NCBI RefSeq assembly: GCF_009797025.1
Contig: NZ_CP047027.1
Coordinates: 930,001 to 994,000, forward strand
Source of the DNA: Cellulophaga sp. L1A9
GTDB lineage: Bacteria > Bacteroidota > Bacteroidia > Flavobacteriales > Flavobacteriaceae
Direction of reading: 5' to 3'
DNA length: 64,000 nucleotides
Below the pieces are notes generated by a model. That model was not told where the DNA came from. It worked only from the letters and a program-made list of their open reading frames with translations, and searched no databases. Below are positions 40,196 to 64,000 of the stretch, piece after piece (position 1 is the stretch's first letter; each line of letters starts with the position of its first letter). A program made the position numbers and the translations under genes.

Positions 40196-40369
40196 ATTGA
40201 AAACCCTACCATTCAACGATTAAATCAAACATTTTATAGAATAATCACTAAATAATGACCCCTAGTGTGGAAAACCGCAGGCAACTATAGAAAATAGCAG
40301 TTATTTTTATACGAAGTAAGACTTCCCCCACAAATAAAATAATAGTGAACATGCGTATATGCGCTTGTT
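40196..40369 (+). repeat. Class I att element, left-truncated; left end of the cassette array
   Basis: It matches only the right third of the about 600-bp class I element. It keeps the ATTCAACGATTA segment, the TATAG/TATA hairpin and the terminal hairpin ACATGCG-TATATG-CGCTTGT (40349-40368). The first cassette opens with GTTGGCA at 40367. The IS110 relic and left end are absent. Confidence 0.7.
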
Positions 40370-40394
40370 GGCAAAAATTAAATAACTACACAAG

Positions 40395-41312
40395 TTGAGC
40401 ATTAACAAAAAAATATCAGTGACTTCAATATTGGCATTAAAGGATGCTCTAGTAACTATTTACTATCGCAAAAAAGACCTCCGACAATTTATAGAATTAA
40501 CTATTGAGAACACTACAATCATATCAACGATTGATTGGACAGAAAATACAAAATATGAAAGTGTATCCCAATTAATTGACCGCATGGTTAAAAGACAGGA
40601 CATTTATCAAAATGACCTTTTAAAGCTAGTGCAGGAAGTTGGAAACATGAACGATTTCTCTCATTTAGATTATTGGGACAAAGAAAATAAAGGATTAATC
40701 AAAAATGCTAAAGCTGCAGTGGCCAAATTGAGGCAGCAAGCCAAAGGCTATTTTGAAACAATCGATGAACTTAAAAAAACTGAAGAAAGACGAGAATCTA
40801 CAAAAGAAAAATTAAATGATAGCATTGCATATCAACAGAAGCTTGATGAATTGAAAATGCAGTTTTATGAAATTGCTTCTAACACAAATTCACAACAAAA
40901 GGGATTTCAATTCGAAAAATTTTTAAATAAGCTATTTAACTTTTTTGACTTAGACCCTAAATCAGCATTTAAAGTAGTTGGAGAGCAAATTGATGGAGCT
41001 TTTACTTTTGACAACTCAGACTATCTTCTAGAAGCTAAATGGCAAGAAAAGCCAATAATTGCAGCTGATTTGTACACGTTTGGCGGTAAGATTCAAGGTA
41101 AATTAAAGAATACGCTAGGCTTATTCGTATCACTTGGACCTTATTCAACTGAATGCACCGAAACAGGAAGTCCAGTTCTTAAATCAATGATTTTAATGGA
41201 CGGAATGGATTTAATGCAAGTACTTGAAGGCAGAATTCCATTGAATGACATGATTTTAATTAAAAGACGACACGCCTCTCAGACTGGAGAAATTTATTAC
41301 AGAATGAAATAA
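40395..41312 (+). CDS. Mrr-like restriction endonuclease (PD-(D/E)xK)
   Basis: The 305-residue protein starts with TTG (LSINKKISVTSILALKDALV). The N-terminal part is helical (a possible specificity region with a coiled coil at 115-150). The C-terminal nuclease domain contains GEQIDGAFTF...YLLEAKWQEK, which supplies the D and ExK of the Mrr/type IV restriction fold. It may cleave modified or foreign DNA. It is the first gene in the array, paired with 41324-41875. Confidence 0.75.
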   Translation: MSINKKISVTSILALKDALVTIYYRKKDLRQFIELTIENTTIISTIDWTENTKYESVSQLIDRMVKRQDIYQNDLLKLVQEVGNMNDFSHLDYWDKENKGLIKNAKAAVAKLRQQAKGYFETIDELKKTEERRESTKEKLNDSIAYQQKLDELKMQFYEIASNTNSQQKGFQFEKFLNKLFNFFDLDPKSAFKVVGEQIDGAFTFDNSDYLLEAKWQEKPIIAADLYTFGGKIQGKLKNTLGLFVSLGPYSTECTETGSPVLKSMILMDGMDLMQVLEGRIPLNDMILIKRRHASQTGEIYYRMK

Positions 41313-41323
41313 AACAAATAATT

Positions 41324-41875
41324 ATGAAAACAACAATAAGCGTTCTATCTGTAAACGAGATGAAAATAATTAAGCAAGTAAATCTCGTCATTCAAAACCG
41401 AAATAAAATTGATATTACGGCAGGTATTATCCTTTATGAGCGTGAGTTTTCAGAGACTTATACATTCGAAGAAAAAAAGAAGGATGAAAAAGACTTTTTT
41501 CACTTTAGTACTTATCCTAAACAAGAGGACTATCCAAATGATCACTTAGACTCATTGATTCTTGAAACTATCAAAACAGATTTTCCTAAAGCACAATTTA
41601 AGAGTAACCTTTTGTTTTCCTCATCAGATGTTGAGCATTATGATAATCTAACAAAAAGACCTTTTGAGAAAGCTGAGTTGAATTGTATTCCAGACTTTTC
41701 AGGAATTGATTTAAGTCGATTACCAACCACCACTTTTAAGGGCTTTAGAAAAGAAATCAATATTTATGTTGATGGTTCATCAGAGGTGATTAAAAACAGA
41801 ATATTTAAAGGGTATTGTGATTTTCGAAATCATGAACAGATATATGATAGATTGGATGCAATAAAATTCCTCTGA
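41324..41875 (+). CDS. Hypothetical protein paired with the Mrr-like nuclease
   Basis: The 183-residue protein has no signal or TM and is beta-rich. It is 11 bp downstream of the nuclease gene in the same cassette. No family was recognised; a partner or regulator role is possible only from context. Confidence 0.6.
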   Translation: MKTTISVLSVNEMKIIKQVNLVIQNRNKIDITAGIILYEREFSETYTFEEKKKDEKDFFHFSTYPKQEDYPNDHLDSLILETIKTDFPKAQFKSNLLFSSSDVEHYDNLTKRPFEKAELNCIPDFSGIDLSRLPTTTFKGFRKEINIYVDGSSEVIKNRIFKGYCDFRNHEQIYDRLDAIKFL

Positions 41876-41887
41876 AATAAAAAACGA

Positions 41888-42080
41888 AATGCCAACACGG
41901 TATATAGCAAATAAGGCGCTCGATGGTTTCCGAAAGTTAAGTGCTATTTACAAACACCGCCAAATCGTTGATTTGGCTTTTAAGAATGAATAAATTAAAA
42001 ACAAAATACAACGCTTTGGCTCAGTGCAAACTTGAAAGTTCATCGCTTTCTACTGCCCTACTTGCCATATACTAATCGTT
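41888..42080 (+). repeat. Class II att-like element 1
   Basis: It opens with AATGCCAAC, then ACGGTATATAGC, and closes with GCCATATACTAATC before GTTGTGCGT (42078). TGCCAAC pairs with GTTGGCA of its own cassette (40367). The inner arms GTATAT/ATATAC pair, and a GCCAAAT...ATTTGGC hairpin lies inside. It shares long stretches with the element at 54844. Confidence 0.7.
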
Positions 42081-42099
42081 GTGCGTAATTTATGAATCT

Positions 42100-42540
42100 A
42101 TGACAAAATTTGAATTAACATCAATAGTTATTGCTTCAATTTCCATTGGAATAAGTCTTTTGGCTGTGTTTCTTTCTGGTAAAGCTAATAATACAAACAA
42201 GAATATGTTTAGAAGACAAGGTGTAATTGACTTACATATGGCTTGGCAAGGGATAAATGAGATTGATAAAAACAAATTGATTGGACCTGATATAGTTAAA
42301 GCAGTCAATGCTCTTTCTTTAACCGCTTCGCTATGGAATCACGATGTGATTGAAAAAAGTATTCTATACCAAACTTACTGGAACTCATATCGAGACCTTT
42401 ACGATACCTTAATTATTATAAATGAATTAGTTCCAGGACATAAAAAAACTTGTAGAAGTCTAATGACAAATGAAATAACAAAAGCGTATGAAGGAATGAA
42501 AAACGCTGATTTAAATACTGTATCTCAAACAAACTTATAA
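42100..42540 (+). CDS. DUF4760-like small membrane-anchored protein
   Basis: The ATG at 42100 (MTKFELTSIVIASISIGISL) is preferred; the longer ORF starts inside the att element. The 146-residue protein has one N-terminal TM and a helical cytosolic domain with aromatic residues (SILYQTYWNSYRDLYDTLII). It resembles phage-associated small anchored proteins but was not firmly recognised. Confidence 0.6.
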   Translation: MTKFELTSIVIASISIGISLLAVFLSGKANNTNKNMFRRQGVIDLHMAWQGINEIDKNKLIGPDIVKAVNALSLTASLWNHDVIEKSILYQTYWNSYRDLYDTLIIINELVPGHKKTCRSLMTNEITKAYEGMKNADLNTVSQTNL

Positions 42541-42541
42541 A

Positions 42542-42742
42542 ATGAATGAACACGAAATTTATCTAAAGATCAAAGAAGCAATAACAGCAATAGAGCTTTA
42601 TCAAAAAAATCTAAATGAGGGAAAAAAAGGAATTTGGACAACGCAAATAAATGAAGGACTTGTAACTCTAACCGAAAAACGACATATGCTAGCTTCTTCT
42701 GGAGATACTTGTCCTAGATGTGGAGGAAGTGGAAGAGCGTAA
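42542..42742 (+). CDS. Small protein with one zinc knuckle
   Basis: The 66-residue protein has a helical N-terminus and a single CPRCGGSG zinc-binding or DnaJ-like motif at the C-terminus. It starts 1 bp after the previous stop, in the same cassette. Confidence 0.6.
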   Translation: MNEHEIYLKIKEAITAIELYQKNLNEGKKGIWTTQINEGLVTLTEKRHMLASSGDTCPRCGGSGRA

Positions 42743-42748
42743 AAAACT

Positions 42749-42950
42749 ACACACAACAACGCACACTTCTCATAGCTAGGTAATTAATTCATAGTTATGG
42801 CATATTTTCCAAGTCACCAAATTTTTAAATTTGATAGATTTAAAATAAAAAGATAATTAGCAAAATTTAAAAATTCAGCTTGTGCTTATCCGAAACGAAA
42901 GTGCTTATTTTCAGCACTATATTTCATTTACAAGACTGTTAGCCACAACC
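42749..42950 (+). repeat. att-like element closing the second cassette
   Basis: It opens with ACACACAAC, which pairs at 8 of 9 positions with the cassette start GTTGTGCGT (42078). It closes before GTTAGCCAC (42948). The inner part contains AAACGAAAGTGCTTAT, also present in the IIb elements. Confidence 0.65.
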
Positions 42951-42964
42951 TAAAAAAATACAGA

Positions 42965-44821
42965 GTGCATTTAAAATCAATCCAAATTAAAAACTTTAAA
43001 GGCTTTAAAAACCTTTCTTTTGAATGTAACCAAAACTTCAATGTTGTAATTGGCGAGAATAATATAGGAAAAAGTACAATATTTGAAGCACTCTTAATAT
43101 GGGAAAGTTGTTTTAATCGAATAATAAATTCAAAAAAGACAAACTTTTATAAAGCAGATGGTGGAAATACTTATATCCCGTTTGGAGATTTAACATTTAT
43201 TAGATTAATAAACGACACCGATTTATTCTTTGAGGCACCAAACCAAGCAAGAATAACAGTAAATATAAAAGATAAGGAAAATGTATTCGCATTAACTTTC
43301 GAATTAAGTAAACCTAAATCAATTAGTAATTCGTATTTGAGGTTTAAAACAGTAAACCATAAAGAATTTGAAAAATTTGCACTATTTTTAAAACAGCAAC
43401 AAATTAAACTTGACGAAGCTATCTTTATTTATCAAACCAAACCTGTTTCTAACATATTAAATAAAGAACCTTTTATGAACTCTGGTCAAGTTCTAAAGAA
43501 GATTTCAATTGGTAAATCTGGTGAAGTTTTACGAAACAAAATAATCAAAAAAAAAGCTGTTAATCGCACAAATTTAGAAAATCAAATATCAAAAGTTTTA
43601 GACCAAAAAATTAATTTCCAATGTAATAATGAAAAGAGGTTTCAAAAAGATGAATATATTGATTTAAAAGTTTCTAATGGAATTAAAAGTTTAGATATTC
43701 ATTTACAAGGAAGTGGCTTTTTACAAGTAGCAGAGATTTTCTCAACAATTGATTATCTTGAAAATGCAATGAATATATTACTCATTGATGAACCAGACTC
43801 ACATATTCACGCTAAATTACAAAGAAAACTTCTTCAAGAATTAAGACTAATTAATAACACCCAAATATTTGTAATATCTCACAACGACACTTTTGTTAGC
43901 GAACTAAATCCTGATGAATTATTTTATCTGAACAACGAAAGTAAAAATGAGGGTTCTATAAAAAAATTAGACCTAAAAAACTTTGACAAAATAAAAAAAG
44001 AATTAGGAGGTATAATTGTAGCTCTAGACAAACTTAATTACACTCATAAAGTTTGTTTTGTAGAAGGAGATGACGATATAGAATACATCAATCGTCTATT
44101 AAAAAAACACCTGAAAATAGAACCTGAAAATCTTCCAAAAAAAGAAGTCGTATTCTACCATCTTAGAGGCAAAGATTTTTTGTTAAAAAAAATAGATCAT
44201 AATAAGAGACTCTTGAGTCAACTTTTTAAAGACAAGAGTTATGCTGTAATTTATGATAAAGATTTCTCTACAGAAGATTCCTGCACTGATTTTAATGTTG
44301 AAATTTCAAGAAAATTAGGAAATAATTCAAATGTTTATACCCACAATGGTTATTGCATTGAGTCTACAATATTTTCAGATTTAGAAAAATTATGTGAGTT
44401 TTTATCTAATTGGAGTGGAATATCTAAACTAAGAGTACATTTCTTTATTGAAGAATTCTTTTCTAATATTAATAATGACTTTGGTGTTCATACGTCAAAA
44501 TATTATAAAGATTTTGAAATAAAATTTAAAGGTCAGAAAAAAGAATCAAGGCCAGAACTTAACACAGTTGATTTTAATGACTTTTTAGGAAACGCATTGG
44601 AACTCGGAAAATCTCATTATTTATTTAATAAAGCTTTAATATCTGATTTCTATAAGAACTTTAAAAATCATTTCTATACAATAGATAAAGATTTACTATC
44701 AAAAACAAGTGAAGATTTATCCTCAGAATTATTCAACTCATATATTGAAAACATTTCAAATTCAAGAGATTTTATTGATTGTAACAAAAATTTATTAAGA
44801 ATAATATATGAAATTGATTAA
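42965..44821 (+). CDS. OLD-family ATP-dependent nuclease (ABC ATPase plus TOPRIM)
   Basis: The 618-residue protein starts with GTG. The N-terminal ABC-type ATPase has Walker A GENNIGKST (about 31-39), Walker B LLIDEPDSHIHAKL and an H-loop VISHNDT. The C-terminal TOPRIM nuclease has VEGDDDIEYI and the acidic YDKDFS. OLD nucleases act in phage defence alone or with partners (as in Gabija or PARIS). No helicase or second gene is in this cassette, so it would be a single-gene (class 1-type) system. Confidence 0.85.
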   Translation: MHLKSIQIKNFKGFKNLSFECNQNFNVVIGENNIGKSTIFEALLIWESCFNRIINSKKTNFYKADGGNTYIPFGDLTFIRLINDTDLFFEAPNQARITVNIKDKENVFALTFELSKPKSISNSYLRFKTVNHKEFEKFALFLKQQQIKLDEAIFIYQTKPVSNILNKEPFMNSGQVLKKISIGKSGEVLRNKIIKKKAVNRTNLENQISKVLDQKINFQCNNEKRFQKDEYIDLKVSNGIKSLDIHLQGSGFLQVAEIFSTIDYLENAMNILLIDEPDSHIHAKLQRKLLQELRLINNTQIFVISHNDTFVSELNPDELFYLNNESKNEGSIKKLDLKNFDKIKKELGGIIVALDKLNYTHKVCFVEGDDDIEYINRLLKKHLKIEPENLPKKEVVFYHLRGKDFLLKKIDHNKRLLSQLFKDKSYAVIYDKDFSTEDSCTDFNVEISRKLGNNSNVYTHNGYCIESTIFSDLEKLCEFLSNWSGISKLRVHFFIEEFFSNINNDFGVHTSKYYKDFEIKFKGQKKESRPELNTVDFNDFLGNALELGKSHYLFNKALISDFYKNFKNHFYTIDKDLLSKTSEDLSSELFNSYIENISNSRDFIDCNKNLLRIIYEID

Positions 44822-44829
44822 AAAAGGCA

Positions 44830-44860
44830 GTGACCAACAAAGAACTGAGCTAAAAAACAA
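44830..44860 (+). repeat. Class I att element, truncated to its left end
   Basis: GTGACCAAC (44830-44838) pairs at 7 of 9 positions with the start GTTAGCCAC (42948). It is followed by the class I start AAAGAACTGAGCTAAAAAAC. The rest of the element is missing, and unrelated AT-rich sequence continues to 45000. Confidence 0.6.
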
Positions 44861-46240: not shown

Positions 46241-46856
46241 AATGCCAACAAAAAACTGAGGTAAAAAACAAGTAAATTCTTCTTTAATCTGAGACACTAG
46301 TATTCTAGGCTCAAAGATTCAAAAATTAGGATCTATGAGCTTTTTTATTCTATTTATCCGCTATTTATTGGGCAATATAGAAACGTACGTTTCATCATAG
46401 GGTCTGCCAGATTTTGCGATAGCAAAGGACTGTTTACCTAGTTTGTTGGCAACTGCTATCAGTGCCAGTTTCTTGCTCTTCCCCTTGTTCACGATTCGCT
46501 CATATACCGCTCTGCATGCCTAGTTATGCGTACAAGCATTGAAAGAACATAGAAACAATAGCCTCCGAAGCTTTCTATTACCGACCTTACTTATTCTCGC
46601 TCGAGCTCTTACACTGCTCCTCGACTCTCGTATCGTTGGGGTTATACCGACATAACGACAAAGCTGTGATGCTGTTTCAATCTTGTTCAAAAACGTACCA
46701 TTCCCCGATTATATGAAACTCTTTTTAGAATAATAGCTAAATTGTTAACACTAGTTTGGAAACCGAAGACAACTATAGGAAATAAAAGTTATTTTTATAA
46801 TTAGTATTCCCCCCGTACAAATTAAATAATATGGAACATGCGCATGTGTGCTTGTT
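46241..46856 (+). repeat. Class I att-like element 1 (with IS110 relic)
   Basis: The start AATGCCAAC is followed by AAAAAACTGAGGTAAAAAAC, the shared terminator hairpin, the antisense IS110 relic and the TATAG/TATA hairpin. The end hairpin is ACATGCG-CATGTG-TGCTTGT. The next cassette opens at GTTATGTGT (46854). Confidence 0.75.
46365..46721 (-). pseudogene. IS110-family transposase C-terminal relic 1
   Basis: Homologous to the intact 118-codon relics at 51844 and 53917. Here an in-frame TAG (near 46538) and a one-base insertion in AAAAACG (near 46690) break it. Only the C-terminal Tnp domain is represented. Confidence 0.75.
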
Positions 46857-46873
46857 ATGTGTAATAACCAAAA

Positions 46874-47437
46874 ATGAAAAAAATAAAACTTCCAAACATT
46901 AATCAATCTGAATTCATCAAGGCCTTTGAGAGTTTTAAAAAGTTTGTGAATAGCGATATTGAATACAATAATGACCTTAACGAAATCCACACAGCCTCTA
47001 AAGAATTTGATAAATGGCACTTAATGACCTTAGCAAGTTTTTATGGAGGTAATCTGTTTAGAGCAACTAACGAATTAAGGTTAATTGAACATCAATTATG
47101 TGATGTTGTATTTGAAAAGGCTTATCATTCTCAAAGTGTAGAATTAAAAACCGAATGGAATGATGAAATAGAAATTAAACCCATTTTAATGTTTGATGCC
47201 GACTCTTTTTTGACAAAGAAACTAGTTAACTCTATCTCGAATAATTCAAAAAAACAATTGATTGAAAAAATGCCAACTCTTAATACGGAACAATCTGTTT
47301 ATAGAGTAACAAAAGAAGCAATGAAATTTGAACATTTTGCATATATAATAATTAAGAGCACTTTAATTTTTATTCGAGATGAAAAAGAAAAAGCAACTAT
47401 TACAAACCTTTGGAAAATAGAGTGGAATGAAATATAA
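46874..47437 (+). CDS. Hypothetical cassette protein
   Basis: The 187-residue protein has a helical N-terminus (SEFIKAFESFKKFVNSDIEY). A middle ELRLIEHQLCDVVFEKAYH segment follows. There is no signal or TM and no known motif. The next gene overlaps its end by 11 bp if the upper ATG is used. Confidence 0.6.
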   Translation: MKKIKLPNINQSEFIKAFESFKKFVNSDIEYNNDLNEIHTASKEFDKWHLMTLASFYGGNLFRATNELRLIEHQLCDVVFEKAYHSQSVELKTEWNDEIEIKPILMFDADSFLTKKLVNSISNNSKKQLIEKMPTLNTEQSVYRVTKEAMKFEHFAYIIIKSTLIFIRDEKEKATITNLWKIEWNEI

Positions 47438-47447
47438 GTTTAATATA

Positions 47448-47651
47448 ATGACTAATTATCCTTCAGATTTGGAAAAGGAAATGATTGATTTCAACAACGT
47501 AAATAACACAGATTTAAAACTGATACAAGTACTAAATGATGAAGTTACATTTGTTGAAGTTGAAACCTCTATGTCTGACGAATTGCTTTTCAAATTTGGA
47601 ACGAAATTTGGATACAGTGAAACAAAGAAAAATATAGAAGGAAGAATATAA
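47448..47651 (+). CDS. Hypothetical 67-aa cassette protein
   Basis: The ATG at 47448 (MTNYPSDLEKEMIDFNNVNN) is preferred; an upstream ATG at 47427 would overlap the preceding gene. Small acidic beta-rich protein, unknown family. Confidence 0.55.
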   Translation: MTNYPSDLEKEMIDFNNVNNTDLKLIQVLNDEVTFVEVETSMSDELLFKFGTKFGYSETKKNIEGRI

Positions 47652-47652
47652 A

Positions 47653-47718
47653 ACACATAACAATTTGTATAATGCATATGCACCCTACGGGATGCAAACG
47701 CACCATACAAGAAACGTT
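47653..47718 (+). repeat. attC-like site of canonical size (about 66-70 bp)
   Basis: R'' = ACACATAAC (perfect complement of cassette start GTTATGTGT, 46854). A 3-nt spacer and L'' TTGTAT follow. After an inner stem-loop, L' ATACAA, a 5-nt spacer and R' GTTGGCA (47716) complete it. This two-arm layout with spacers is that of an integron attC site. Confidence 0.75.
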
Positions 47719-47746
47719 GGCATCCATTTAAACAAAACATAGAGAT

Positions 47747-48970
47747 ATGCACAAAACCTTTATATTTTTATTCATAATTGTTATTTCCTTACCAGCAAAA
47801 TTAATAGGACAACAAAAGAACACTTATATCAAAGCGGGATTTTTATATGACAGTAAAAGCAATACGCTACTAAAAAACAAGCTTATACAAATTCAAGGGA
47901 CAAAAATTATTTCTATTAGCGAATTTGAATCTTTACCTGAAAACATCCAAGTCATTGATTTAAAAGAGTATACTGTCCTTCCAGGACTAATTGATGCACA
48001 TACACATGTACTTTTTTATCAAGAGGCCAATGAAGATTTTGCAGAACACAGCGTTAAATCGCTGACCATGGAAAGTGATGCTTTAAGAGCACTTCGTGGT
48101 GCTAAAAGAGCCAAAAGTTATTTAGAAGAAGGAATAACAAGCATTAAAGACCTTGGGAACTCTGGTTTATACCTTGATGTAGCTCTTCGAGACGCTATTA
48201 ATGAAGGTACAATTGATGGTCCTCGTATTTTTGCATCTGGTCCAATTTTAGCGGCAAATGGCGGACAAGTTTATGGTGTACTACCTAAACACCAAAACAT
48301 TATAGATTTAGAGTATCGAATCATAACGAATCCTGAAGATGCAAAAAATGCTGTTCGTGAACATGTTAATCAAAATGTAGACTTAATCAAAATTTGTGCT
48401 GATAATATTCCAAATAACACATATTTAACAATAGATGAAATAAAATCTATTGTAAAGACTGCTCACTCATATAATTTGAAAGTCACAGCTCATTCCGTAA
48501 CAAATCAGTCCGCATGGAATGCAATTGAAGCTGGTGTAGATGGAATTGAACATGGTTTTAATTTAGCAGATAGCACTTTAGTTAACATGGCAGAAAAGCA
48601 AATATTTCTTGTACCTACAGAAAATAGTAAATCATATATGTACACTTATGCAAAACTCGCTAACTATAAAGAAAATGAGTTAGATTGGATTGACAACTAT
48701 ATTGATAGAATGAAAAAAAGACTTGATCGAGCAATTAAAATAGGTGTTCCTATAGTAGCCGGTTCTGATAATTATACGGATATAAAAACATCTAGCGGAA
48801 AATCATCTAAAGACATGTATAGGTACTATTTAGAAGCAGGAATGAAGCCTTTAGACATACTTCAGTCCAGCACATATATTTCGGCTTTTCAATTAGGAAG
48901 AGAAAATGAAATTGGTTACATACAACCTAAATCAAATGCAGATATTATTGCTGTAAAAGGAGATATATAA
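47747..48970 (+). CDS. Secreted amidohydrolase, C-terminus cut by a frameshift
   Basis: The 407-residue protein has a signal peptide (ISLPAKLIGQQ) and the metal-dependent hydrolase fold. LIDAHTHVL (first ligands), conserved Lys in LIKIC, VTAHS, GIEHGF and GSDNYTD are all present. Similar enzymes cleave Xaa-Pro/Arg dipeptides or related amides. The normal end of the family (FIMKDGNIYK) lies in another frame at 48969-49046, so one extra base near 48968 removes about 25 residues. It may still fold. Confidence 0.85.
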   Translation: MHKTFIFLFIIVISLPAKLIGQQKNTYIKAGFLYDSKSNTLLKNKLIQIQGTKIISISEFESLPENIQVIDLKEYTVLPGLIDAHTHVLFYQEANEDFAEHSVKSLTMESDALRALRGAKRAKSYLEEGITSIKDLGNSGLYLDVALRDAINEGTIDGPRIFASGPILAANGGQVYGVLPKHQNIIDLEYRIITNPEDAKNAVREHVNQNVDLIKICADNIPNNTYLTIDEIKSIVKTAHSYNLKVTAHSVTNQSAWNAIEAGVDGIEHGFNLADSTLVNMAEKQIFLVPTENSKSYMYTYAKLANYKENELDWIDNYIDRMKKRLDRAIKIGVPIVAGSDNYTDIKTSSGKSSKDMYRYYLEAGMKPLDILQSSTYISAFQLGRENEIGYIQPKSNADIIAVKGDI

Positions 48971-49046: not shown

Positions 49047-49070
49047 AATACATTTCAAACAAAAAACGTG

Positions 49071-54408: not shown

Positions 54409-54427
54409 GTAGTGCATTGACAAAAAA

Positions 54428-54838: not shown

Positions 54839-54843
54839 AAAAC

Positions 54844-55040: not shown

Positions 55041-55057
55041 GTGCATAATTTCAGAAA

Positions 55058-55543: not shown

Positions 55544-55549
55544 AAAACT

Positions 55550-55736
55550 ATGCCCAACTCAAGCTATATACAATACAAGCTTCAGGTTTAATCATGGGGT
55601 TTGTGTATTTTTATGAGGTCTTAAAATATGGTGTTTAAAATAGAAAAGATAAAAGCAAAATATCTACAGTTAGCTTAGTAATTAACCTAAACGAAAGTGC
55701 TTATCACCTGCCATACGATTTCTTATACTTAACCTT
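55550..55736 (+). repeat. Class IIb att-like element 2
   Basis: ATGCCCAAC pairs at 8 of 9 with the start GTTGTGCAT (55038). The interior is nearly identical over about 140 bp to the element at 51006. It ends before CTTGTAGTAC (55734), where G of GTT is changed. Confidence 0.72.
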
Positions 55737-55753
55737 GTAGTACATTTTAAAAA

Positions 55754-56215: not shown

Positions 56216-56217
56216 AA

Positions 56218-56249
56218 GCGCAATAACCTGTGCTATAATTAATACAGTT
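56218..56249 (+). repeat. Miniature att-like hairpin (about 32 bp)
   Basis: GCGCAATAAC is followed by a CTGT...ACAG stem and GTTTTTGAG (56247). It keeps the AAC/GTT ends and one stem only. GCGCAATAAC does not match its cassette start. Confidence 0.45.
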
Positions 56250-56313
56250 TTTGAGCTTAATCAAAAAGTCTATGTTTCTTAGACGAGTCGCTAGCAACAA
56301 TACGAAAAACAGA

Positions 56314-56775
56314 ATGGGAATTTTTGACTTTATATTTGGAAAGACTATTAAAATAGATGACGAATTCTTTGGGAAGATGATATTCTCTGAATTCAAGAAA
56401 AATCCTGAAAAGAATTATTTTGAATGTAGAAGACATTTCAAATCGACTGACGAAATCATAGAAATCGGAATCGAGGGAGACGTAACTGGCCCGACTGAAG
56501 TGCAAAAAGACTTTTTTCGAAAAATCGAGTCTGATTATGAAAAAATCATATCGTTCATAAAACCAATGATTGAAAAAGAATTTCGGAACTGGAAGGAAGA
56601 TTTCAAAATAACTGACTTTAAAAAGGAATTTAAAGCTGTTTATTTATTTTTACCTCGTTGTGAAAAAGAACCAAAAGTTTGGGAAATAGCATTTGAAAGT
56701 GAACACGATTTAAACCATACGTTTACTTTGACAATGAACGATTTGAGTGCGACCGAAATATTAATAGATGGATAA
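56314..56775 (+). CDS. Hypothetical cassette protein
   Basis: The ATG at 56314 (MGIFDFIFGKTIKIDDEFFG) is preferred over the one at 56251. The 153-residue protein begins with the MGIFDFIFG pattern shared by many small immunity-like proteins. It has a beta-rich second half. No recognised family. Confidence 0.55.
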   Translation: MGIFDFIFGKTIKIDDEFFGKMIFSEFKKNPEKNYFECRRHFKSTDEIIEIGIEGDVTGPTEVQKDFFRKIESDYEKIISFIKPMIEKEFRNWKEDFKITDFKKEFKAVYLFLPRCEKEPKVWEIAFESEHDLNHTFTLTMNDLSATEILIDG

Positions 56776-56819
56776 AGCTTGGATATTTCTTGCAAATTTC
56801 ACTGTTATTAGCTTAAGCA

Positions 56820-57042
56820 TTGTCGGAGTTATACCGACATAACTACCAAGTTGTGATGCTGTTATAAACTTGTTTAAAACGCACCATTCACCGATTACAT
56901 TAAACACTTTTTAGAACAATAGCTAAATAGTGACCTCTAATGTGCAAACCGAAGACAACTATAGAAAATAAAAGTTATTTTTATAATCAGTATTTTTCTC
57001 CCCAGAAAAAAACACTATGGAACAGGCGTATATGCGCTTGTT
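56820..57042 (+). repeat. Class I att-like element 5 (left part deleted)
   Basis: Only the last about 95 bp of the relic, the TATAG/TATA hairpin and the end hairpin ACAGGCG-TATATG-CGCTTGT remain. The left end and terminator are gone, so the preceding cassette has no R''. The next opens at GTTGACAAC (57040). Confidence 0.72.
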
Positions 57043-57086
57043 GACAACAAGCTAAAAAACTCGGAGCTAAAATAATAAACCATAAA

Positions 57087-58607
57087 ATGAAAAAACAAAA
57101 CGTTAGGAAATTATTTTATAGCTTACTTATAATTTCAGTCGTTTCAATCGGAGTTTTTATTTGGGCAAATAAAGAATTGAATAAGGTTAATGGAAAATCC
57201 ACAGATGTCATAAATATTTCTTCTAATATAAAACCATCTTCATCAATCTATATAAAAAACATAAGCGTACTTTCAGAAGATTGTAGTCATTTTATTGAAA
57301 ACCAAGATGTAGTAATTGAAAATGGCAAAATAATTTCTTTGAGCCAAAATCAGCTTGTAGATATCACTTTTAGAATTATTGATGGTACAAACAAGTTTTT
57401 GATTCCAGGACTTATAGATTCTCACGTTCATTTAAAAGAAAGTAAAAACGACTTGTATCTATATCTTGTAAATGGAATAACTTATGTTAGAGAAATGGCT
57501 GGTAGACCATTAAATTTAGAATGGAGAAAATCATTACAAGAGAACGAAATTGCACCTCGTATATTTATTACATCACCACCAATTTACAGCGAAAAGGGAT
57601 TAACAGGCTATTATTATGCTTGGACAAGACAAGCAATCAATTATTCAAATAAGGAAGATGCGGAAAAAGCAATTAAGGAAATTAAGGAACAAGGTTATGA
57701 TGCAATTAAAATGTATGGCTTTGTGAATCCTGAAATGTTCAAAGCAACATTGGAAATTGCAAAGAAATATGAAATTCCTGTTATTGGTCACGTTCCTCAA
57801 GTTAATCTGGAAACTTTATACCAATCTGGTCAAAAAGAAGTTGCTCACATTGAAGAGCTGACCAAAAAAAATATGGAAGATTTTGGCAAATCAATTAAAA
57901 ATAACCCTGAAGAATATCTGGATTTTTTAAAAACACATTCAGACCAAATTGCAAAAAAATTAAAAGAGAACAATATTTATGTAACGTCAACTATTTCACT
58001 CGCAGAAAGTTTTCCGAGACAACGCTTCGATTTAAATTCTGAACTTAAAAATGTAGAGTTAAAATATGTAAATCCAAAAATAATTGAAGGAACTGAACTT
58101 TACAAATTAGGTTGGTTACCTAAACAAAATGGATATGAATATGACGGAGAAGATAATGTTGGAGCAAGAGAGCTTTCTTTTACATATTGGAAAACTTATG
58201 TGGATGCTATTCATTTAATGACCAAAGCACTTGTAGATAATAATGTTCCGATAATGGCTGGTACAGATGCAAATGTTCCAACTAGTGTTCCAGGCTTTTC
58301 ACTTCACAATGAACTGGAATCTTTATCTAAATCGGGAATGACCAACTCACAAGCAATCTATTCAGCAACTGTTGAACCAAGTAATTGGATGAAAAGTAAC
58401 ACTGGAAAAATCAAAGTTGGATATAATTCAGATTTAATACTTTTATCAAAAAATCCATTGGAAAATATAAAAAATACAAAAACAATAGAATATGTGTTTT
58501 TTGATAAATATATAATCGACAAAACTCAAATCAAAGAAATCCTAAAAGGAATAGAAAGTGCAAATAACGAAGATAGAAACGTTAAAATAGAAAAATACGT
58601 CAATTGA
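57087..58607 (+). CDS. Membrane-anchored amidohydrolase
   Basis: The 506-residue protein has an N-terminal TM (LFYSLLIISVVSIGVFIWA) and a metal-dependent hydrolase domain. FLIPGLIDSHVHL supplies the HxH, GYDAIKMYGFV the Lys, VIGHVPQ and VAHIEELT the histidines and GTDANVPTSV the Asp. The family includes imidazolonepropionase-like and dipeptidase enzymes. It is the second amidohydrolase in the array but is not close to the first, so two separate captures are likely. Confidence 0.88.
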   Translation: MKKQNVRKLFYSLLIISVVSIGVFIWANKELNKVNGKSTDVINISSNIKPSSSIYIKNISVLSEDCSHFIENQDVVIENGKIISLSQNQLVDITFRIIDGTNKFLIPGLIDSHVHLKESKNDLYLYLVNGITYVREMAGRPLNLEWRKSLQENEIAPRIFITSPPIYSEKGLTGYYYAWTRQAINYSNKEDAEKAIKEIKEQGYDAIKMYGFVNPEMFKATLEIAKKYEIPVIGHVPQVNLETLYQSGQKEVAHIEELTKKNMEDFGKSIKNNPEEYLDFLKTHSDQIAKKLKENNIYVTSTISLAESFPRQRFDLNSELKNVELKYVNPKIIEGTELYKLGWLPKQNGYEYDGEDNVGARELSFTYWKTYVDAIHLMTKALVDNNVPIMAGTDANVPTSVPGFSLHNELESLSKSGMTNSQAIYSATVEPSNWMKSNTGKIKVGYNSDLILLSKNPLENIKNTKTIEYVFFDKYIIDKTQIKEILKGIESANNEDRNVKIEKYVN

Positions 58608-58631
58608 ATTAAAAACAGAACGGAAAAGCCA

Positions 58632-59248
58632 GTTGCCAACAAAGAACTGAGGTAAAAAACAAGCAAATTCTTCTTTAATTTGAGACACTATTATTCTATG
58701 CTCATAAATTCAAAAAACAGATTCTTTGAGCTTTTTTTATTCGGTTTGTTCCCTATTTATTTAGGCAATACAGAAACGAACCTTTCATCATAGGGTCTGC
58801 CAGATTTTGCACTAGCAAAAGACTGTTTACGTAGTTTGTTGGCAACAGCTATCAATGCCCGTTTCTTGCGCTGCCCTTTGTTCACGATTCGCTCATATAC
58901 CGCTCTACAAAACTTGTCGTATTTACAAGCATTGAAAGAACATAAAAACTATAGCTTCTGAAGCTTTCTATTGCCGACCTTCCTTATTCTCGCTCGACCT
59001 CTTATACTGCTCCCCGACTCTCGTAGCGTTGGGGTTATACCAACATAACTACAAAGTTGTGATGCCATTTCAAAATTATTTAAAACGTACCATTCCCCGA
59101 TTATATGAAACACTTTTTAGAATAATAGCTAAATAGTGACCTCTAGTGTGGAAACCGAAGACAACTATAAAAAATAAAAGTTATTTTTATAATCAGTATT
59201 TTTCTCCCCAGAAAAAAATTAAATTGAATATACGTTTATCCGTATGTT
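58632..59248 (+). repeat. Class I att-like element 6 (with IS110 relic)
   Basis: GTTGCCAAC pairs at 8 of 9 with the start GTTGACAAC (57040). Terminator, relic and TATAG/TATA hairpin follow, then ATATACG-TTTATC-CGTATGT as in element 4. The next opens at GTTGTAGTGC (59246). Confidence 0.78.
58757..59113 (-). pseudogene. IS110-family transposase C-terminal relic 6
   Basis: Full-length relic with an in-frame TAG inside the RKLL region (near 58952) and other changes. Domain content is as in relic 3. Confidence 0.72.
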
Positions 59249-59264
59249 GTAGTGCATTGCAAAA

Positions 59265-59501
59265 ATGACAAGAGAAGAGTTAATAAAATTAGGAGAAAAA
59301 ATTGTAAAAACTCAAGGAACAGAAAGTGAGCTTGATGAATTGTACGAAAGATTCAACAAAAACATACCTTATCCTGACGGAGCAAATTTATTTTATTATC
59401 CTGAAAATTATAATGCAAGTAAAGACTACTTGAGTCAATATAAACCAACAGTTGAAAGTATTGTTGATAAATGCCTTTCTTATAAACCTATTATTCTTTA
59501 A
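59265..59501 (+). CDS. Bacteriocin-immunity-like protein
   Basis: The 78-residue protein (MTREELIKLGEKIVKTQGTE, then FYYPENYN, ending VDKCLSYKPIIL) matches the small bacteriocin immunity proteins common in Bacteroidota. Such proteins protect against a cognate toxin; none is present here. It shares a cassette with the next gene. Confidence 0.72.
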   Translation: MTREELIKLGEKIVKTQGTESELDELYERFNKNIPYPDGANLFYYPENYNASKDYLSQYKPTVESIVDKCLSYKPIIL

Positions 59502-59502
59502 A

Positions 59503-59889
59503 ATGGAATTATCAAAACTAAAAAATCAATGGATTTATTATCCTTGGCTTATTAATAATGACCTAGACCATCTTGTCCATCATAATGATTTGACAGATTC
59601 AAGGATTAATGGATTGGGAGTAGTTCTGTGTATAGGTCAAGAAGACAATTACATAAAGATTAGAGCTAATAATTTTGAACTAAGAGTAAAAGAAGAAGGA
59701 ATATTAAAATTATTACCTAAACCATTATTTATATGGAACGATAAAATTGAACTTTTAAAAAATAAAAATTGCGGAACTATTAATGATATAATTTGGCATC
59801 ATAAAGACGAGAAATATTATTACTTTATCGAAAGTAATGGAAAACAACTCAAGAAAAGACTAAATGATACTGAAATAAAAAAGATATAA
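59503..59889 (+). CDS. Hypothetical protein sharing the immunity cassette
   Basis: The ATG at 59503 is 1 bp after the previous stop, and MELSKLKNQWIYYPWLINND is a sensible start. The 128-residue all-beta protein has no recognised family. Confidence 0.6.
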   Translation: MELSKLKNQWIYYPWLINNDLDHLVHHNDLTDSRINGLGVVLCIGQEDNYIKIRANNFELRVKEEGILKLLPKPLFIWNDKIELLKNKNCGTINDIIWHHKDEKYYYFIESNGKQLKKRLNDTEIKKI

Positions 59890-59891
59890 AC

Positions 59892-60076
59892 GCAACACAA
59901 CACTATGTATATTTAATGCGGGGCAATCGCTAACCGAATGGATTTGTTTTTTGGTTTGACGGCAATATATATTGACACAATTTTTCATTAAATTTAAAAA
60001 TCACAAAATGTATTGCCTTGTGCTTAATCGAAAAGCCCCTGTATTTCCGCTCCGCACAAAACATACATTTAGCGTT
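59892..60076 (+). repeat. Class II att-like element 4
   Basis: GCAACACAAC pairs at 8 of 10 with the start GTTGTAGTGC (59246). The inner arms ATGTAT/ATACAT and GCGGGGC/GCTCCGC pair. It closes before GTTGTAAAA (60074). Confidence 0.72.
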
Positions 60077-60115
60077 GTAAAACATTAACTAAACATTGAG
60101 AATTCATATCATAAA

Positions 60116-60937
60116 ATGAAAAAACTAGTTTTTTTAATTTTTGTTTTAATAACCTTTTTGTGTAAAGCACAAGAAAGTGGAATATTTAAATACTTGAATA
60201 TTAATGAAATGAAAACAAAAACATTAAAAGAACTTCGTATCATACGAAATGAAGTTTTTGCAAGAAAAGGTTATGTTTTTCAGAGTAAAGATTTGCAAGA
60301 ATATTTTTCAAAACAAATTTGGTACAAAGCAGACCCAAATTCAGAAATACAACTTTCAACTAAGGAAAAAGTATATATAAATCAGATTAAAAATTTAGAA
60401 AAAAGTCTTTTACAAAATAATTGTTCCTGTATTAATTGTATAGGAAAACAAAATATTAATTTGTTACCCTTAATAAGTGCTGACTTTTTAGAAGTAGATA
60501 AAAATCCTGATAAATTTAATAAATTAAAACCTGCTCAAGTTAACTATACAGATATGAATCCAATAGTTAATGGAAATTTGTGTGGTGGAGGTTATGCTTG
60601 GAATATTACGTGTTTCACTAATATTAAATATCAATTAATGTTTTATGTGTGTCATAGTGACAATTTACTTTTAAAACTTGCTGTACTAAAAGATGATAAA
60701 TCTATTGACTTTATAGAACTTTACGATTCGTCTTTATATGATGAAGATGGTGGTAATATTATTGACGGTTTTTATGATGTTGATTTTAAATTAGATGAGA
60801 ATTATTTAGAAGTATACAAAATATATCGAAAGCGTATAGATAACCCAACTGAAGACACCCAATTTGACACCAAAGAAATACGCAGAGAAATCACTAAATA
60901 TAGTCTTAGTAAAAATGGTTTAGTGATAGTTAAATAG
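60116..60937 (+). CDS. Secreted YARHG-domain protein
   Basis: The 273-residue protein has a signal peptide (FVLITFLCKAQ). The YARHG domain spans about residues 30-80: LKELRIIRNEVFARKGYVFQ, then FSKQIWYKADP. It is an extracellular domain, probably peptidoglycan-linked. A CSCINCIG motif follows, then a beta domain of unknown function. Confidence 0.8.
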   Translation: MKKLVFLIFVLITFLCKAQESGIFKYLNINEMKTKTLKELRIIRNEVFARKGYVFQSKDLQEYFSKQIWYKADPNSEIQLSTKEKVYINQIKNLEKSLLQNNCSCINCIGKQNINLLPLISADFLEVDKNPDKFNKLKPAQVNYTDMNPIVNGNLCGGGYAWNITCFTNIKYQLMFYVCHSDNLLLKLAVLKDDKSIDFIELYDSSLYDEDGGNIIDGFYDVDFKLDENYLEVYKIYRKRIDNPTEDTQFDTKEIRREITKYSLSKNGLVIVK

Positions 60938-60960
60938 TTTATTAATGAGCCGATAAAACA

Positions 60961-61572
60961 TTTTACAACAAAGAACTGAGGTAAAAAACAAGTAAATTCT
61001 TCCTTAATCTAAGACACTAGTATTCTAGGCTCATAAATTCAAAAAACAGATTCTTTGAGCTTTTTTCATTCGATTTATCCTCTATTTATTTAGGCAATAC
61101 AGAAATGTACCTTTCATCATAGGGTCTGCCAGATTTTGCAATCGCAAAGGACTGTTCAATCTGTTTGTTGGCAACGGCTATCAATGCCAGTTTCTTGTGC
61201 TGCCCTTTGTTCACGATGTGCTCATGCTCTACATACTTTGTGATGCTTACAAGCATTGAAAGAATATAGAAATAATAGCTTCCGAAGCTTTCTATTACCC
61301 ACCTTACTGATTCGCGCTCGACCTCTTACACTACTCCCTGACTCTCGTATCGTTGGGGTTATACGGACATAACTACAAAGCTGTGATGCCATTTCAAACT
61401 TGTTTAAAACGTACCATTCCCCGATTATATGAAACACTTTTTAGAATAATAGCTAAATAGTTGCCACTAGTTTGGAAACCGACGACAACTATAGGAAATA
61501 ATAGTTATTTTTATAATCAGTATTTTTCTCCCCAGAAAAAAATAATATGGAACAGGCGTGTATGCGCTTGTT
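60961..61572 (+). repeat. Class I att-like element 7 (with IS110 relic)
   Basis: TTTTACAAC pairs perfectly (9/9) with the start GTTGTAAAA (60074). Terminator, relic, TATAG/TATA hairpin and ACAGGCG-TGTATG-CGCTTGT follow. The next opens at GTTGTAACC (61570). Confidence 0.8.
61086..61437 (-). pseudogene. IS110-family transposase C-terminal relic 7
   Basis: The N-terminal half is readable from 61437 (SQLCSYVRITPTIRESGSSV). A frame break near 61225 follows, where some bases are missing relative to relic 3. Confidence 0.75.
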
Positions 61573-61588
61573 GTAACCAATTTGAAAA

Positions 61589-62548
61589 ATGAAAAAAAAT
61601 ACTACATTATTACTATTATTAAGCATTTGTGTTTTTAAAATTTGTTTTGGACAAGAAAAAGACTCTTTAGAACTCAAAAGGTTTAAGAAATTTCTTCCAT
61701 ACGTAATAAAAGGAATTCAAGATGAAGAGCAATCGAATGATAATATCAATGAGAAAACAGCTGGACTATTTAATAAACCTTGGTTAATCAATAAATTAGA
61801 TATTCAAGAAGCTAAAAATATAGCCACTTCAATAACTTCCAATAAAATTGTTAGAATTGAAAAAAATCATTCTGGGATATGGAATTTAGACATCTTGTCA
61901 AGCTTAAACACTTCTATATCAAAAGAATTAACTTCTGCGAGCATAGATTTATTACCGAACATTTTTGTTGAAATATTGGATACTGAAATAAATGATTCTT
62001 CAGGAAATTCAGTTGTCGACGTAGGCGCAGATGAAAAAAACATAAAGACAAACTTCAATAATCGTTCTTTAAATATAACTATTCCTTTAAACCGAGAATA
62101 TAAAAATGTAAATGGAACAATCGATATTTCCATAAACGAATTTGGAGAAGTATTTTTCAAAGAGTTCAAAAAAGTTGATAAAAATATAAAATTCAACTTG
62201 GGCAAGATTGACCAAATTGAACTTATCAAAATAGAAAAAAATCGTGCTTATTTATTATTGCCTTCTAAACTATCGGAAGTCGAAATAATCCCTACAAATA
62301 AATCAGATGAAATCTTTTCTGAAAAAACAAGGTTAACTGTTCCAAAAACAATTTATGAGTTCTCAAAAAACAAAAACTTAACAGATGAATCGATTAAAAG
62401 CTTCGTGAATGATTTATCATACGCTGATGCTTACAACAATGAACAGATAGTAGTAATAGAAACTAATGGAGTGATAGAAAATCTATACGTCTTTATAAAA
62501 TCTGATTCGAAAAGACTATGTAAAGAAACTATGGAAATAAAACTATAG
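61589..62548 (+). CDS. Exported hypothetical protein
   Basis: The 319-residue protein has a signal peptide (LLLLLSICVFKICFGQ). The mature part is charged and beta-rich with no known domain. Confidence 0.6.
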   Translation: MKKNTTLLLLLSICVFKICFGQEKDSLELKRFKKFLPYVIKGIQDEEQSNDNINEKTAGLFNKPWLINKLDIQEAKNIATSITSNKIVRIEKNHSGIWNLDILSSLNTSISKELTSASIDLLPNIFVEILDTEINDSSGNSVVDVGADEKNIKTNFNNRSLNITIPLNREYKNVNGTIDISINEFGEVFFKEFKKVDKNIKFNLGKIDQIELIKIEKNRAYLLLPSKLSEVEIIPTNKSDEIFSEKTRLTVPKTIYEFSKNKNLTDESIKSFVNDLSYADAYNNEQIVVIETNGVIENLYVFIKSDSKRLCKETMEIKL

Positions 62549-62737
62549 CTAACACATCTTATAAACAATACGGGCTTCGGGCTTAATCGAATGGTTTGTG
62601 TATTTTTATGATGTCCGCAAAATCTTTTGGATTTTGCTTTAAACAATAAAAGAAAAAACAAAACAAAAAGATTTTGCTATGTGCGTGGCGGAAAGTAAAC
62701 GCTAGTTTACTCCCGTACTGTTCATAGCTCCATCGTT
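62545..62737 (+). repeat. Class IIb-related att-like element 3
   Basis: It opens with ATAGCTAAC, which overlaps the stop of the previous gene and does not pair with its cassette start GTTGTAACC. The AACAATACGGGCTTCGGG and GTTTGTGTATTTTTATGA segments are shared with the other IIb elements. It closes before GTTGGCACAC (62735). Confidence 0.68.
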
Positions 62738-62763
62738 GGCACACATAAAGCGAAAATCATAAA

Positions 62764-63993
62764 ATGAAATTATATATAACTCTAATAACAATGATTTTAA
62801 CGACAAATTTATTTTGTCAAGAGATAAAGACGATAATTTCCATAGAAGGAGAAACATTTGACTTTGGAATTGAAGTCCAAAATGATTGGAAAAAAAGAGA
62901 CCAACTATTAGAAGATTTAGCCAATGAAAAAAAGAGTTGGGATAATTTAACAGAAGAAGAAAGTGAGCTTTTTGAAAAATATGACGAAACCTATGGAAGT
63001 ATGTGGGATGTGGAAGGAGGTGGATGCAGTTGGTACTGTGGGGCTGGAGAATATAGCGTAACAACATCATCTGAATTATCTTCTAACGGAAAAATAGATT
63101 ATAAAGCGAAAAACCTAACTGATTTTAGTTACCAAACTGCTTGGGTAGAAGGGAAAAAAGGCTACGGAATAGGAGAATCTATCAATTTTAGTTTTGCTCC
63201 TACGCATCCAAGAGTAACAACAATAATCTTCGCTAACGGTTATGTGAAAAGTAAAAAGGCTTGGAAAGACAACTCAAGAGTGCATAAATTAAAAATGCTT
63301 GTTAACAATGAACCATTTGCTATAATTGAATTAAAAGATATTTATTCAAAACAAATAATTGAGCTTGAAAAACCTCTAGGAAATTTAGATAGGAAAGATT
63401 TTGACAAATTAAAGGAGAAAGATAATTGGAATATAAAATTTGAAATTCTATCTGTTTATAAAGGAGACAAATATGATGACACCGCCATTTCAGAGCTTTA
63501 CTTTGATGGTTTGGATGTTCATTGCTTGGCAAAAGGAACATTAATAACTATGGGTGATAAAACACTCAAAAAAATAGAAGATTTAAAAGTAGGAGACAAA
63601 ATACTGTCTTATAACAAAAAGACTGGTGAATATGAAAGTTCTATCATAAAAGAATTAGCAAGTCAAATTCATAAAGATCTTATCAATATCGAGTTCTCCA
63701 ATGGAATGCAATTAACCTGTACAAAAGACCATCCTTTTTTAGCGAAAAACCTTAGTTGGACTTCGATGAACCCCAACAAGACAGAAAGAGACTATGAAAT
63801 AAATGATGTAATACTACTTAAAGTAGGAACTAAAGTTAGAGATCTGAAAAGCGAATTAGAAGTTGTAAAAATTAATGAGGTTAAAGAAGAACAGATTACT
63901 TACACAATTGTTGACTTAAGCAAAAACAAGACATTTGTTGCAAACGGAATAATAACTGGGATTGAAAAATTACGTGTGCCAAAAAAGAACTGA
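62764..63993 (+). CDS. Secreted protein with NADase-type glycan-binding and Hint domains
   Basis: The 409-residue protein has a signal peptide (ITMILTTNLFCQ). Residues about 85-220 resemble the discoidin-like NADase-type glycan-binding domain: YSVTTSSELSSNGKIDYKAK, TAWVEGKKGYGIGESINFSF. Residues 254-400 are a Hint (intein-like) domain starting at CLAKGTLITM and including LTCTKDHPF and FVANGI. Hint domains self-cleave to release a C-terminal part. Here almost nothing follows (GIEKLRVPKKN), and the stop lies inside the next att element. Confidence 0.8.
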   Translation: MKLYITLITMILTTNLFCQEIKTIISIEGETFDFGIEVQNDWKKRDQLLEDLANEKKSWDNLTEEESELFEKYDETYGSMWDVEGGGCSWYCGAGEYSVTTSSELSSNGKIDYKAKNLTDFSYQTAWVEGKKGYGIGESINFSFAPTHPRVTTIIFANGYVKSKKAWKDNSRVHKLKMLVNNEPFAIIELKDIYSKQIIELEKPLGNLDRKDFDKLKEKDNWNIKFEILSVYKGDKYDDTAISELYFDGLDVHCLAKGTLITMGDKTLKKIEDLKVGDKILSYNKKTGEYESSIIKELASQIHKDLINIEFSNGMQLTCTKDHPFLAKNLSWTSMNPNKTERDYEINDVILLKVGTKVRDLKSELEVVKINEVKEEQITYTIVDLSKNKTFVANGIITGIEKLRVPKKN

Positions 63994-64000
63994 GGTAAAA
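63974..64000 (+). repeat. Class I att-like element 8, left end only (window edge)
   Basis: GTGTGCCAAA pairs at 9 of 10 with the start GTTGGCACAC (62735) and is followed by the class I start AAAGAACTGAGGTAAAA. The last seven codons of the Hint gene overlap it. The array therefore continues past the window. Confidence 0.75.

Follow-up and report, generated by a model that had tools for sequence, protein, structure and literature searches.

A cassette array with integron-like features in Cellulophaga sp. L1A9 and an associated family of tyrosine recombinases lacking the I2 domain

Array and its question

The right-hand part of a 64,000-nucleotide stretch of the Cellulophaga sp. L1A9 chromosome (the window; G000:C1:930001-994000 of a genome assembled as one contig of 5.07 Mb) carries a run of small genes separated by repeats, raising the question of whether these genes were gathered by integron-type cassette capture and, if so, by which enzyme. 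A sequence-only reading had proposed single-strand capture by a tyrosine recombinase with altered core specificity. The array starts at window position 40367 and its right end lies ∼4.7 kb beyond the window end, the 19 units analyzed here spanning from 40367 to 3.8 kb beyond that end. Judging from the comparisons reported below, we consider this array to be probably (at roughly 0.88) an integron-like system that would work in the integron manner but uses another enzyme and another code in its sites.

Start/end matching of the cassettes

In integrons, the bases that follow the cut are part of the next cassette and match that cassette's own R''. Starts and ends were compared unit by unit, anchored on conserved site letters chosen by eye and not on the variable R-box letters. 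The test set comprised the 19 units with a GTT start and a definable end (U1 to U3, U5 to U12, and U15 to U22, with U20 to U22 beginning beyond the window end); U4, U13 (whose start reads CTTG), U14, and U23 had no GTT start and were excluded before counting. Over positions 4 to 10, starts matched their own ends at 96 of 133 positions, against a mean of 47.6 (standard deviation, 6.6; maximum, 78) with permuted ends, and none of 200,000 trials reached 96. At least five of the seven positions were matched in 13/19 units (11/16 among those beginning in the window), and the own end was the best or tied best match in 12/19. R'' compared with the R' of the next unit, that is, across one site, gave background values (mean, 2.0/7; 16 pairs). 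The matching belongs to the cassette, not to the site. The start/end complementarity on which the sequence-only reading rested is thus real: its six named pairs were all present with the match counts it gave, and the equal complementarity at shuffled borders that would have told against it was not seen, as permuted borders lacked the matching.

The same reading had noted that the core departs from GTTRRRY, and indeed this motif was fitted by 0/19 starts in the array and by 5/63 in the integrase loci described below. The start consensus read GTTR, then B and V, three variable positions, M, and ATT; position 11 was A in 62/63. Position 11 formed a C.A mismatch in 16/19 array units and in 44/50 cassettes from integrase loci, and positions 12 and 13 paired again, both in the array (36/38; permuted mean, 20.7; maximum, 31) and in 49 distinct cassettes of integrase loci (91/98; permuted, 60.7; maximum, 75). 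Positions 11 to 14 had no part in picking cassettes.

The array contains 11 short sites of 60 to 190 bp and 8 long sites of ∼610 bp when whole. Its parts, with open reading frames (ORFs) in window coordinates, are as follows.

40197..40369, plus strand: left-end attachment region (attI-like), terminating at the GTT that opens the first cassette; the long sites have copies of it as their right part
40367..42080, plus strand: cassette U1, start GTTGGCA, ORFs 40395-41312 and 41324-41875, short site S1 at 41894-42080
42078..42940, plus strand: cassette U2, two small ORFs, degenerate short site S2 at 42755-42940, whose arms form no usable stem
42938..44860, plus strand: cassette U3, AAA-domain ATPase ORF 42965-44821, followed at 44836 by a truncated long-site start
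46247..46856, plus strand: long (b) site S5, composed of an att R'' side, a truncated IS110 transposase (minus strand), and an attI-like copy
46854..47718, plus strand: cassette U5, ORFs 46874-47437 and 47427-47651, 60-bp short site S6 at 47659-47718
47716..49645, plus strand: cassette U6 (amidohydrolase), long site S7 at 49075-49645
49643..51193, plus strand: cassette U7, ORF 49766-50113 and NADAR-domain ORF 50153-51004, start/end match 10/10, short site S8 at 51013-51193
51191..52336, plus strand: cassette U8, long site S9 at 51724-52336
52334..53103, plus strand: cassette U9, short site S10 at 52993-53103
53101..54408, plus strand: cassette U10, two ORFs, long site S11 at 53798-54408
54406..55040, plus strand: cassette U11, short site S12 at 54851-55040
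55037..57043, plus strand: block U12-U14, recurring at G000:C1:216404-218412 (98.8% identity over 2,009 columns) with borders CGTTG and GTTG
57040..59248, plus strand: cassette U15, amidohydrolase ORF 57087-58607, long site S16 at 58638-59248
59246..60076, plus strand: cassette U16, two ORFs, short site S17 at 59899-60076
60074..61572, plus strand: cassette U17, long site S18 at 60967-61572
61570..62737, plus strand: cassette U18, short site S19 at 62551-62737, start matching end at only 1/7
62735..64000, plus strand: cassette U19, NADase-translocation/Hint-domain ORF 62764-63993, long site S20 from 63981 to ∼530 bases past the window
46247-46856, 49075-49645, 51724-52336, 53798-54408, 56819-57042, 58638-59248, 60967-61572, and from 63981: the eight long sites

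The left-end region shares 81.8% identity with the right portion of a long site and occurs at 10 places in the genome. Adjoining the array start is a minus-strand ORF (39511-40020), which we take to be a LemA-like gene.

Fold of the site and the strand concerned

Among 34 integrase-locus sites belonging to the longer class of short sites, double compensatory changes were found at 12 of 20 predicted pairs, and two columns held A opposite C in 34/34. The site is, from this covariation, a predicted two-part hairpin with an R arm of 13 to 14 bp, an unpaired spacer, and an L stem; in most sites the L stem holds two A.C mismatches five positions apart, and the R arm holds the C.A at position 11. When 45 distinct arm pairs of both length classes were compared, 92 of 102 stem mismatches were A.C and none was G.T, with at least two A.C mismatches in 41/45 sites, clustering at stem positions 7 and 12 or 5 and 10, i.e., five apart. 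Bulged bases were absent from 40/45 stems and at least one was present in 5 (pairwise arm alignment).

On the bottom strand, 95 of the 102 mismatches turn into G.T. Since A.C mismatches of the top strand thereby become G.T pairs, the bottom strand is likely the folded substrate, and it was calculated to be the more stable one for the outer stem in 49/49 sites and for the whole site in 45/49 (DNA parameters). IntI binds canonical sites on the bottom strand and performs best when two extrahelical bases are spaced six nucleotides from each other (PMC3053210); by analogy, the A.C (bottom G.T) mismatches may be the counterpart of these bases.

A reading of the sites as RNA structure was set aside, as the 12 pairs of the outer stem contained one G.U across 34 sequences and the mismatches agree with the bottom strand of the DNA; an Rfam search of the window gave no match at curated scores. 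A generic two-arm hairpin scan gave 35 hits in the array versus 13, 26, and 27 in three controls and, being unable to separate the array from the controls, was dropped for a covariance model.

Integrase loci with attI-like repeats

The search of the genome for an integrase, which the sequence-only reading had advised and which was extended to relatives, led to a family of tyrosine recombinases. In the first search, members were found in 16/60 genomes, that of L1A9 included, the intact genes of relatives encoding ∼375 residues; one genome of the same genus (G013) encodes an integrase with the same protein sequence as the Cellulophaga algicola DSM 14237 enzyme. Besides XerC- and XerD-like genes and several other recombinases, the L1A9 genome holds one split family gene (G000:C1:3902750-3903873; L012 2747-3873, minus strand) in two frames of 219 and 147 to 168 residues, the split being either a real frameshift or an assembly error.

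In L1A9 and 13 relatives, a tyrosine recombinase gene is followed just downstream by an attI-like repeat. Inspection by eye of 15 loci (L020 to L034) revealed an inverted repeat directly after the stop codon, and then GTT and a cassette in the same direction, in 14, the arrangement being absent in L034. Thus, as far as sequence can tell, this family adjoins an attI-like inverted repeat and a cassette run in relatives. The window array has an attI-like site with no adjoining integrase, and a second locus of the same genome (L011) consists of the last integrase codons, the same inverted repeat, and cassettes.

The closure of the first cassette behind attI was tested in 13/15 loci, L043 (attI and then GTTC) and L049 (no attI-like site) being left out. 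The score was 10/10 in 10 loci, 9/10 in 2, and 8/10 in 1; because swapped starts (n = 156) often reached 8/10 (72 cases, with 9/10 in 20 and 10/10 in 5), weight is placed only on high scores. Walking along the loci, a 10/10 closer at 0.2 to 1.5 kb was met for 31/47 cassette starts, compared with 7/454 other GTTR; chance closers of 9 to 10/10 occurred for 26/454 GTTR (∼6%). Counting only sites with a closer of 9 to 10/10 and a length of 100 to 200, 12 walked sites measured 116 to 126, 37 measured 184 to 192, and none fell between.

A profile built from 14 proteins and run against the 60 genomes at a threshold of 1e-60 extended the family to 40/60 genomes. Among 11 loci of its clade 2, an attI-like GTT with a 10/10 downstream closer was present in L064, L065, L066, and L074; L072 reached 9/10, and L073 reached 9/10 upstream, in a divergent arrangement. 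Across a class sample of 198 genomes, a family member was detected in 102 at 1e-60 and sites in 29 (genus-trained model, 1e-6), the arrays themselves having been looked at in closer relatives; family membership by itself does not show an array.

Comparison of the integrase with IntI

The IntI insert (∼37 residues; the additional or I2 domain) was absent from 14/14 clade-1 rows and, by eye, from the 9 clade-2 proteins included in the tree, and present in 10/10 canonical IntI proteins of the phylum. R235, K260, H324, R327, H350, and Y359, presumably the catalytic residues, were invariant in 29 rows, and the PF00589 catalytic domain scored 133 to 136 bits in three proteins. Three clade-1 proteins tested just reached, at 220.2 to 227.6 bits, the cut-off (220 bits) of NF040815, the NCBIfam entry "site-specific tyrosine recombinase/integron integrase" (recomb_XerA_Arch), whose name points to archaeal XerA-type enzymes; such a match is silent on cassettes or attC-like sites. 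The closest solved structures by sequence were an archaeal XerC-like protein and XerA, followed by Vibrio IntI4. For the integrase model (pLDDT 85), the first Foldseek match was the Vibrio integron integrase 2a3v, and in VIA-align XerA led with 2a3v second. The structural matches were filled by the catalytic part (residues 103 to 369), and no fold is therefore claimed for the first 100 residues. In the tree, clade 1 formed one group (95/92); the grouping of clade 1, clade 2, and IntI against the genome's own XerC/XerD was weak (83/68), with long branches flagged. As a separate observation, residues 1 to 100 of the L021 model form a small N-terminal domain of their own (strand-strand-helix-strand-strand-helix), which is absent from the 297-residue proteins L064, L065, and L067.

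Could the array then be a canonical IntI integron, or an integrase-less array (CALIN), with somewhat divergent attC sites? Its overall architecture, the GTT cut, the R''/R' matching within the cassette, and the signs of bottom-strand folding would all agree with this, and IntI genes above the TIGR02249 cut-off occur in 84/296 genomes sampled from the phylum. The L1A9 genome itself, however, gave no TIGR02249 match above the cut-off, and the 86 genomes with a strong match included none from its family or order (the order sampling being only partly listed) and one from its class. Moreover, the integrases adjoining the sites lack the insert, three of them scoring 187 to 207 bits against a cut-off of 265, and hardly any starts fit GTTRRRY. 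We regard this explanation as highly improbable. Five canonical IntI loci of the phylum (L075 to L079), chosen as a positive control for canonical attC, gave a single crude hit in all; these loci may lack cassettes, or the pattern may be too strict.

The likeness to IntI integrons (class 1, the Vibrio superintegron, and sedentary chromosomal integrons) is nevertheless wide: cassettes start with GTT and have their own matched R boxes, sites are imperfect folded hairpins built of an R stem, an unpaired spacer, and an L stem, an attI lies beside an integrase gene, and small genes are arrayed in one orientation. What differs, besides the missing domain, is that attI follows the integrase gene in 14/15 loci here and precedes it in the IntI type, that the core reads GTTRBVNNNM plus A at position 11 instead of GTTRRRY, and that A.C (bottom G.T) mismatches stand where IntI sites have extrahelical bases.

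Distribution of sites and of integrases

A covariance model was built from loci other than the window array, with 12 genomes supplying its sites, and applied to the 60 genomes; up to 43 candidates per genome were scored, making site counts per genome lower bounds. This search, another step suggested by the sequence-only reading, detected sites in 41/60 genomes. With the narrow integrase search made first, sites were present in 16/16 positive genomes, but also in 25/44 negatives, in most of which the wider profile then revealed divergent family members. With the extended family, sites occurred in 37/40 genomes with a member and 4/20 without (Fisher P = 2.4e-8); after removal of the 12 model-supplying genomes, the figures were 25/28 and 4/20 (P = 2.0e-6).

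This distribution also bears on the possibility that host XerC/XerD move the cassettes, as in pdif modules, with the adjoining integrase being incidental. Such a role would suit the Xer-like sequence of the integrase and the XerC- and XerD-like genes of the genome, but the sites track the integrase family, while Xer-level matches are also found in genomes without sites. The attI-like repeat and cassette run adjoin the family integrase in many genomes, and the sites are hairpins of 60 to 190 bp with variable R boxes. On this distribution and form of the sites, an Xer-driven array is slightly less probable than a canonical one.

Cassette exchange between strains

The same locus was recognized in two other genomes (G016 and G005), in which the LemA-side flank is common through the attI-like region and different cassettes follow. 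Left-flank homology to G016 covers 39511-40369 (92.7%) and stops at the GTT; that to G005 covers 39511-40378 (93.5%), its nine extra bases being identical in the two starts by coincidence. Further right, the last cassette and the right end are common again in G016, as is sequence beyond in G005. Two copies of the left-end region lie in a rearranged setting in G013.

Single cassettes also recur. U6 is present in G005 at 97% identity behind another site, the identity beginning at CGTTGGCATCC; the U12-U14 block is common to the window array and L011; and a 488-base unit with no long ORF occurs twice in L011 (3104-3591 and 7369-7856), identical and ending with CGTTA before different neighbors. Cassettes and cassette blocks thus recur elsewhere with sequence borders at or near GTT. 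The expectation of the sequence-only reading that single cassettes would be found in other strains, and that relatives would differ by cassette-precise gain or loss, is borne out save for one border, that of U9 in G016. A plasmid search with the single cassette U12 as the query found nothing.

Long sites and IS110 remnants

The sequence-only reading had missed both the IS110-bearing long sites and the extension of the array past the window end. Long sites begin with AACAAAGAACTGAG, or close to it, and hold the C-terminal part of an IS110-family transposase (minus strand) and then a copy of the array's left-end region; an attI-like copy behind an IS110 remnant was found in the eight long sites and once in L011. 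Long IS110-family elements lie at L018 (∼1101-2397) and L019 (∼264-1600), are 95% identical, and stand directly after the AAC of att sites. The L018 copy matches PF01548 and PF02371 (the DEDD and Transposase_20 domains) and NF033542 (224 bits; cut-off, 140), while the array copies match the C-terminal part only. Given this position of the long copies, each long site resembles an att site into which an att-targeting IS110 element had inserted and which afterwards became joined to an attI-like copy.

The IS1111-attC group resembles L018 and L019 in that IS110-family elements are likewise inserted after the AAC of att sites, but the element here matches the IS110 equivalog NF033542, and its truncated remnants are fused to an attI-like copy and repeated along the array. 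In the Delta-attI-type cassettes of mobile integrons, as described in PMC12901181, a cassette end carries attI sequence as in the long sites; here, the attI-like copy comes behind an IS110 remnant and recurs in the long sites.

Least probable of all is a shuffling of genes by IS110-family targeting or by homologous recombination between intergenic repeats, with the hairpins as IS targets or terminators: long IS110 copies do lie inside att sites, a truncated copy is present in eight array sites, the long sites are alike enough to recombine, and the border of the block shared with L011 is a long-site end, but sites with no IS110 sequence show equal cassette-specific end matching, and homologous exchange would not match R'' and R' within the cassette rather than within the site.

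As an observation apart, the long sites carry near their R'' side an inverted repeat followed by T's, terminator-like by eye.

Proposed mechanism and its weighing

Cassettes open at GTT, each carrying its own matched end. In the integron-like working that we propose, the bottom strand of the cassette end would fold into a hairpin in which the mismatches are G.T pairs. An integrase without the I2 domain, probably the family enzyme, would recognize the hairpin and the attI-like site, cut at GTT, and insert the cassette in a single orientation. The window array, which lies at an attI-like site of its own and has no neighboring integrase gene, would need the integrase in trans; as the only family member found in its genome is split by a frameshift, this array may now be immobile. 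The cassette-capture proposal of the sequence-only reading is thereby supported as to the integron, whereas its "altered core specificity" understates the difference, the integrase lacking the additional domain of IntI.

Several observations weigh against this account. U18 (1/7) and U22 (2/7) show no start/end match; the window array is an orphan, and the only family integrase found in its genome lies in two frames. Stems of the main array are less regular, with only 18/28 mismatches A.C and one G.T, three of its 11 short sites (S2, S8, and S22) have no usable stem, and an IS110 remnant occupies eight array sites. The walker picks sites partly by pairing, so that its pair counts lean towards structure; it penalizes A.C, and this bias therefore runs against the A.C finding. 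Among clade-2 loci, L068 and L070 have no attI-like site, L067 (contig end), L069 (no gene by the pattern used), and L071 (doubtful) are undecided, and two of the six positive ones have only 9/10, a chance level of ∼6%. Four genomes carry sites and no family member at the threshold (one of them, G036, at least 27 sites), and three carry the family and no sites; the 1e-60 threshold was set after the scores had been seen, G037 (3.5e-57, partial) was included among the positives, and the Fisher tests take no account of kinship. Finally, one left-end copy in G013 reads ATT for GTT, and in G016 U9 and S10 are followed by other sequence at a right border with no GTT.

A wider claim, to which we lean with considerable reserve, is that these arrays represent a second kind of integron across the class, with integrases that lack I2 and perhaps never had it and with the strand marked by fixed G.T mispairs, of which the L stem has two and the R stem one, instead of extrahelical bases. 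Integron integrases are held to have reached single-strand recombination by gaining the I2 helix, which docks extrahelical bases (PMC7790495 and PMC3053210). Here, arrays with comparative signs of cassette exchange go with integrases without the I2 helix and sites mostly without extrahelical bases. If the wider claim is true, the absence of the domain and that of the bases would belong to a single mechanism, and cassettes could be captured as single strands without I2. With such natural enzymes, the origin of integrons becomes testable.

Bacteroidota are named among the phyla with integrons in PMC8618304 and PMC9668308; in the IntegronFinder 2.0 survey (PMC9024848), a complete integron in Bacteroidetes proper is reported only for Salinibacter ruber, besides Chlorobi and Ignavibacteriae. 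Our literature search, which covered no bioRxiv preprints and few subscription papers, found no recognized treatment of this family's cassette arrays in Flavobacteriia or Bacteroidota. The arrays suggest that this group, with few reported integrons, holds a large reservoir of mobile genes.

Other features of the cassettes and flanks

The AAA-domain ATPase ORF of U3 (42965-44821) matches many AAA models of defense systems, the best being GajA at 74 bits, and a defense role is possible on these matches. The ORF of U19 (62764-63993) combines a NADase-translocation (F5/8 type C) domain with a Hint-like C-terminal part. Dispersed repeats of roughly 150 to 250 bp flank the array, at window positions ∼37546-38240 and ∼10.4 to 11.7 kb past the window end, and are also present in G005 and G016.

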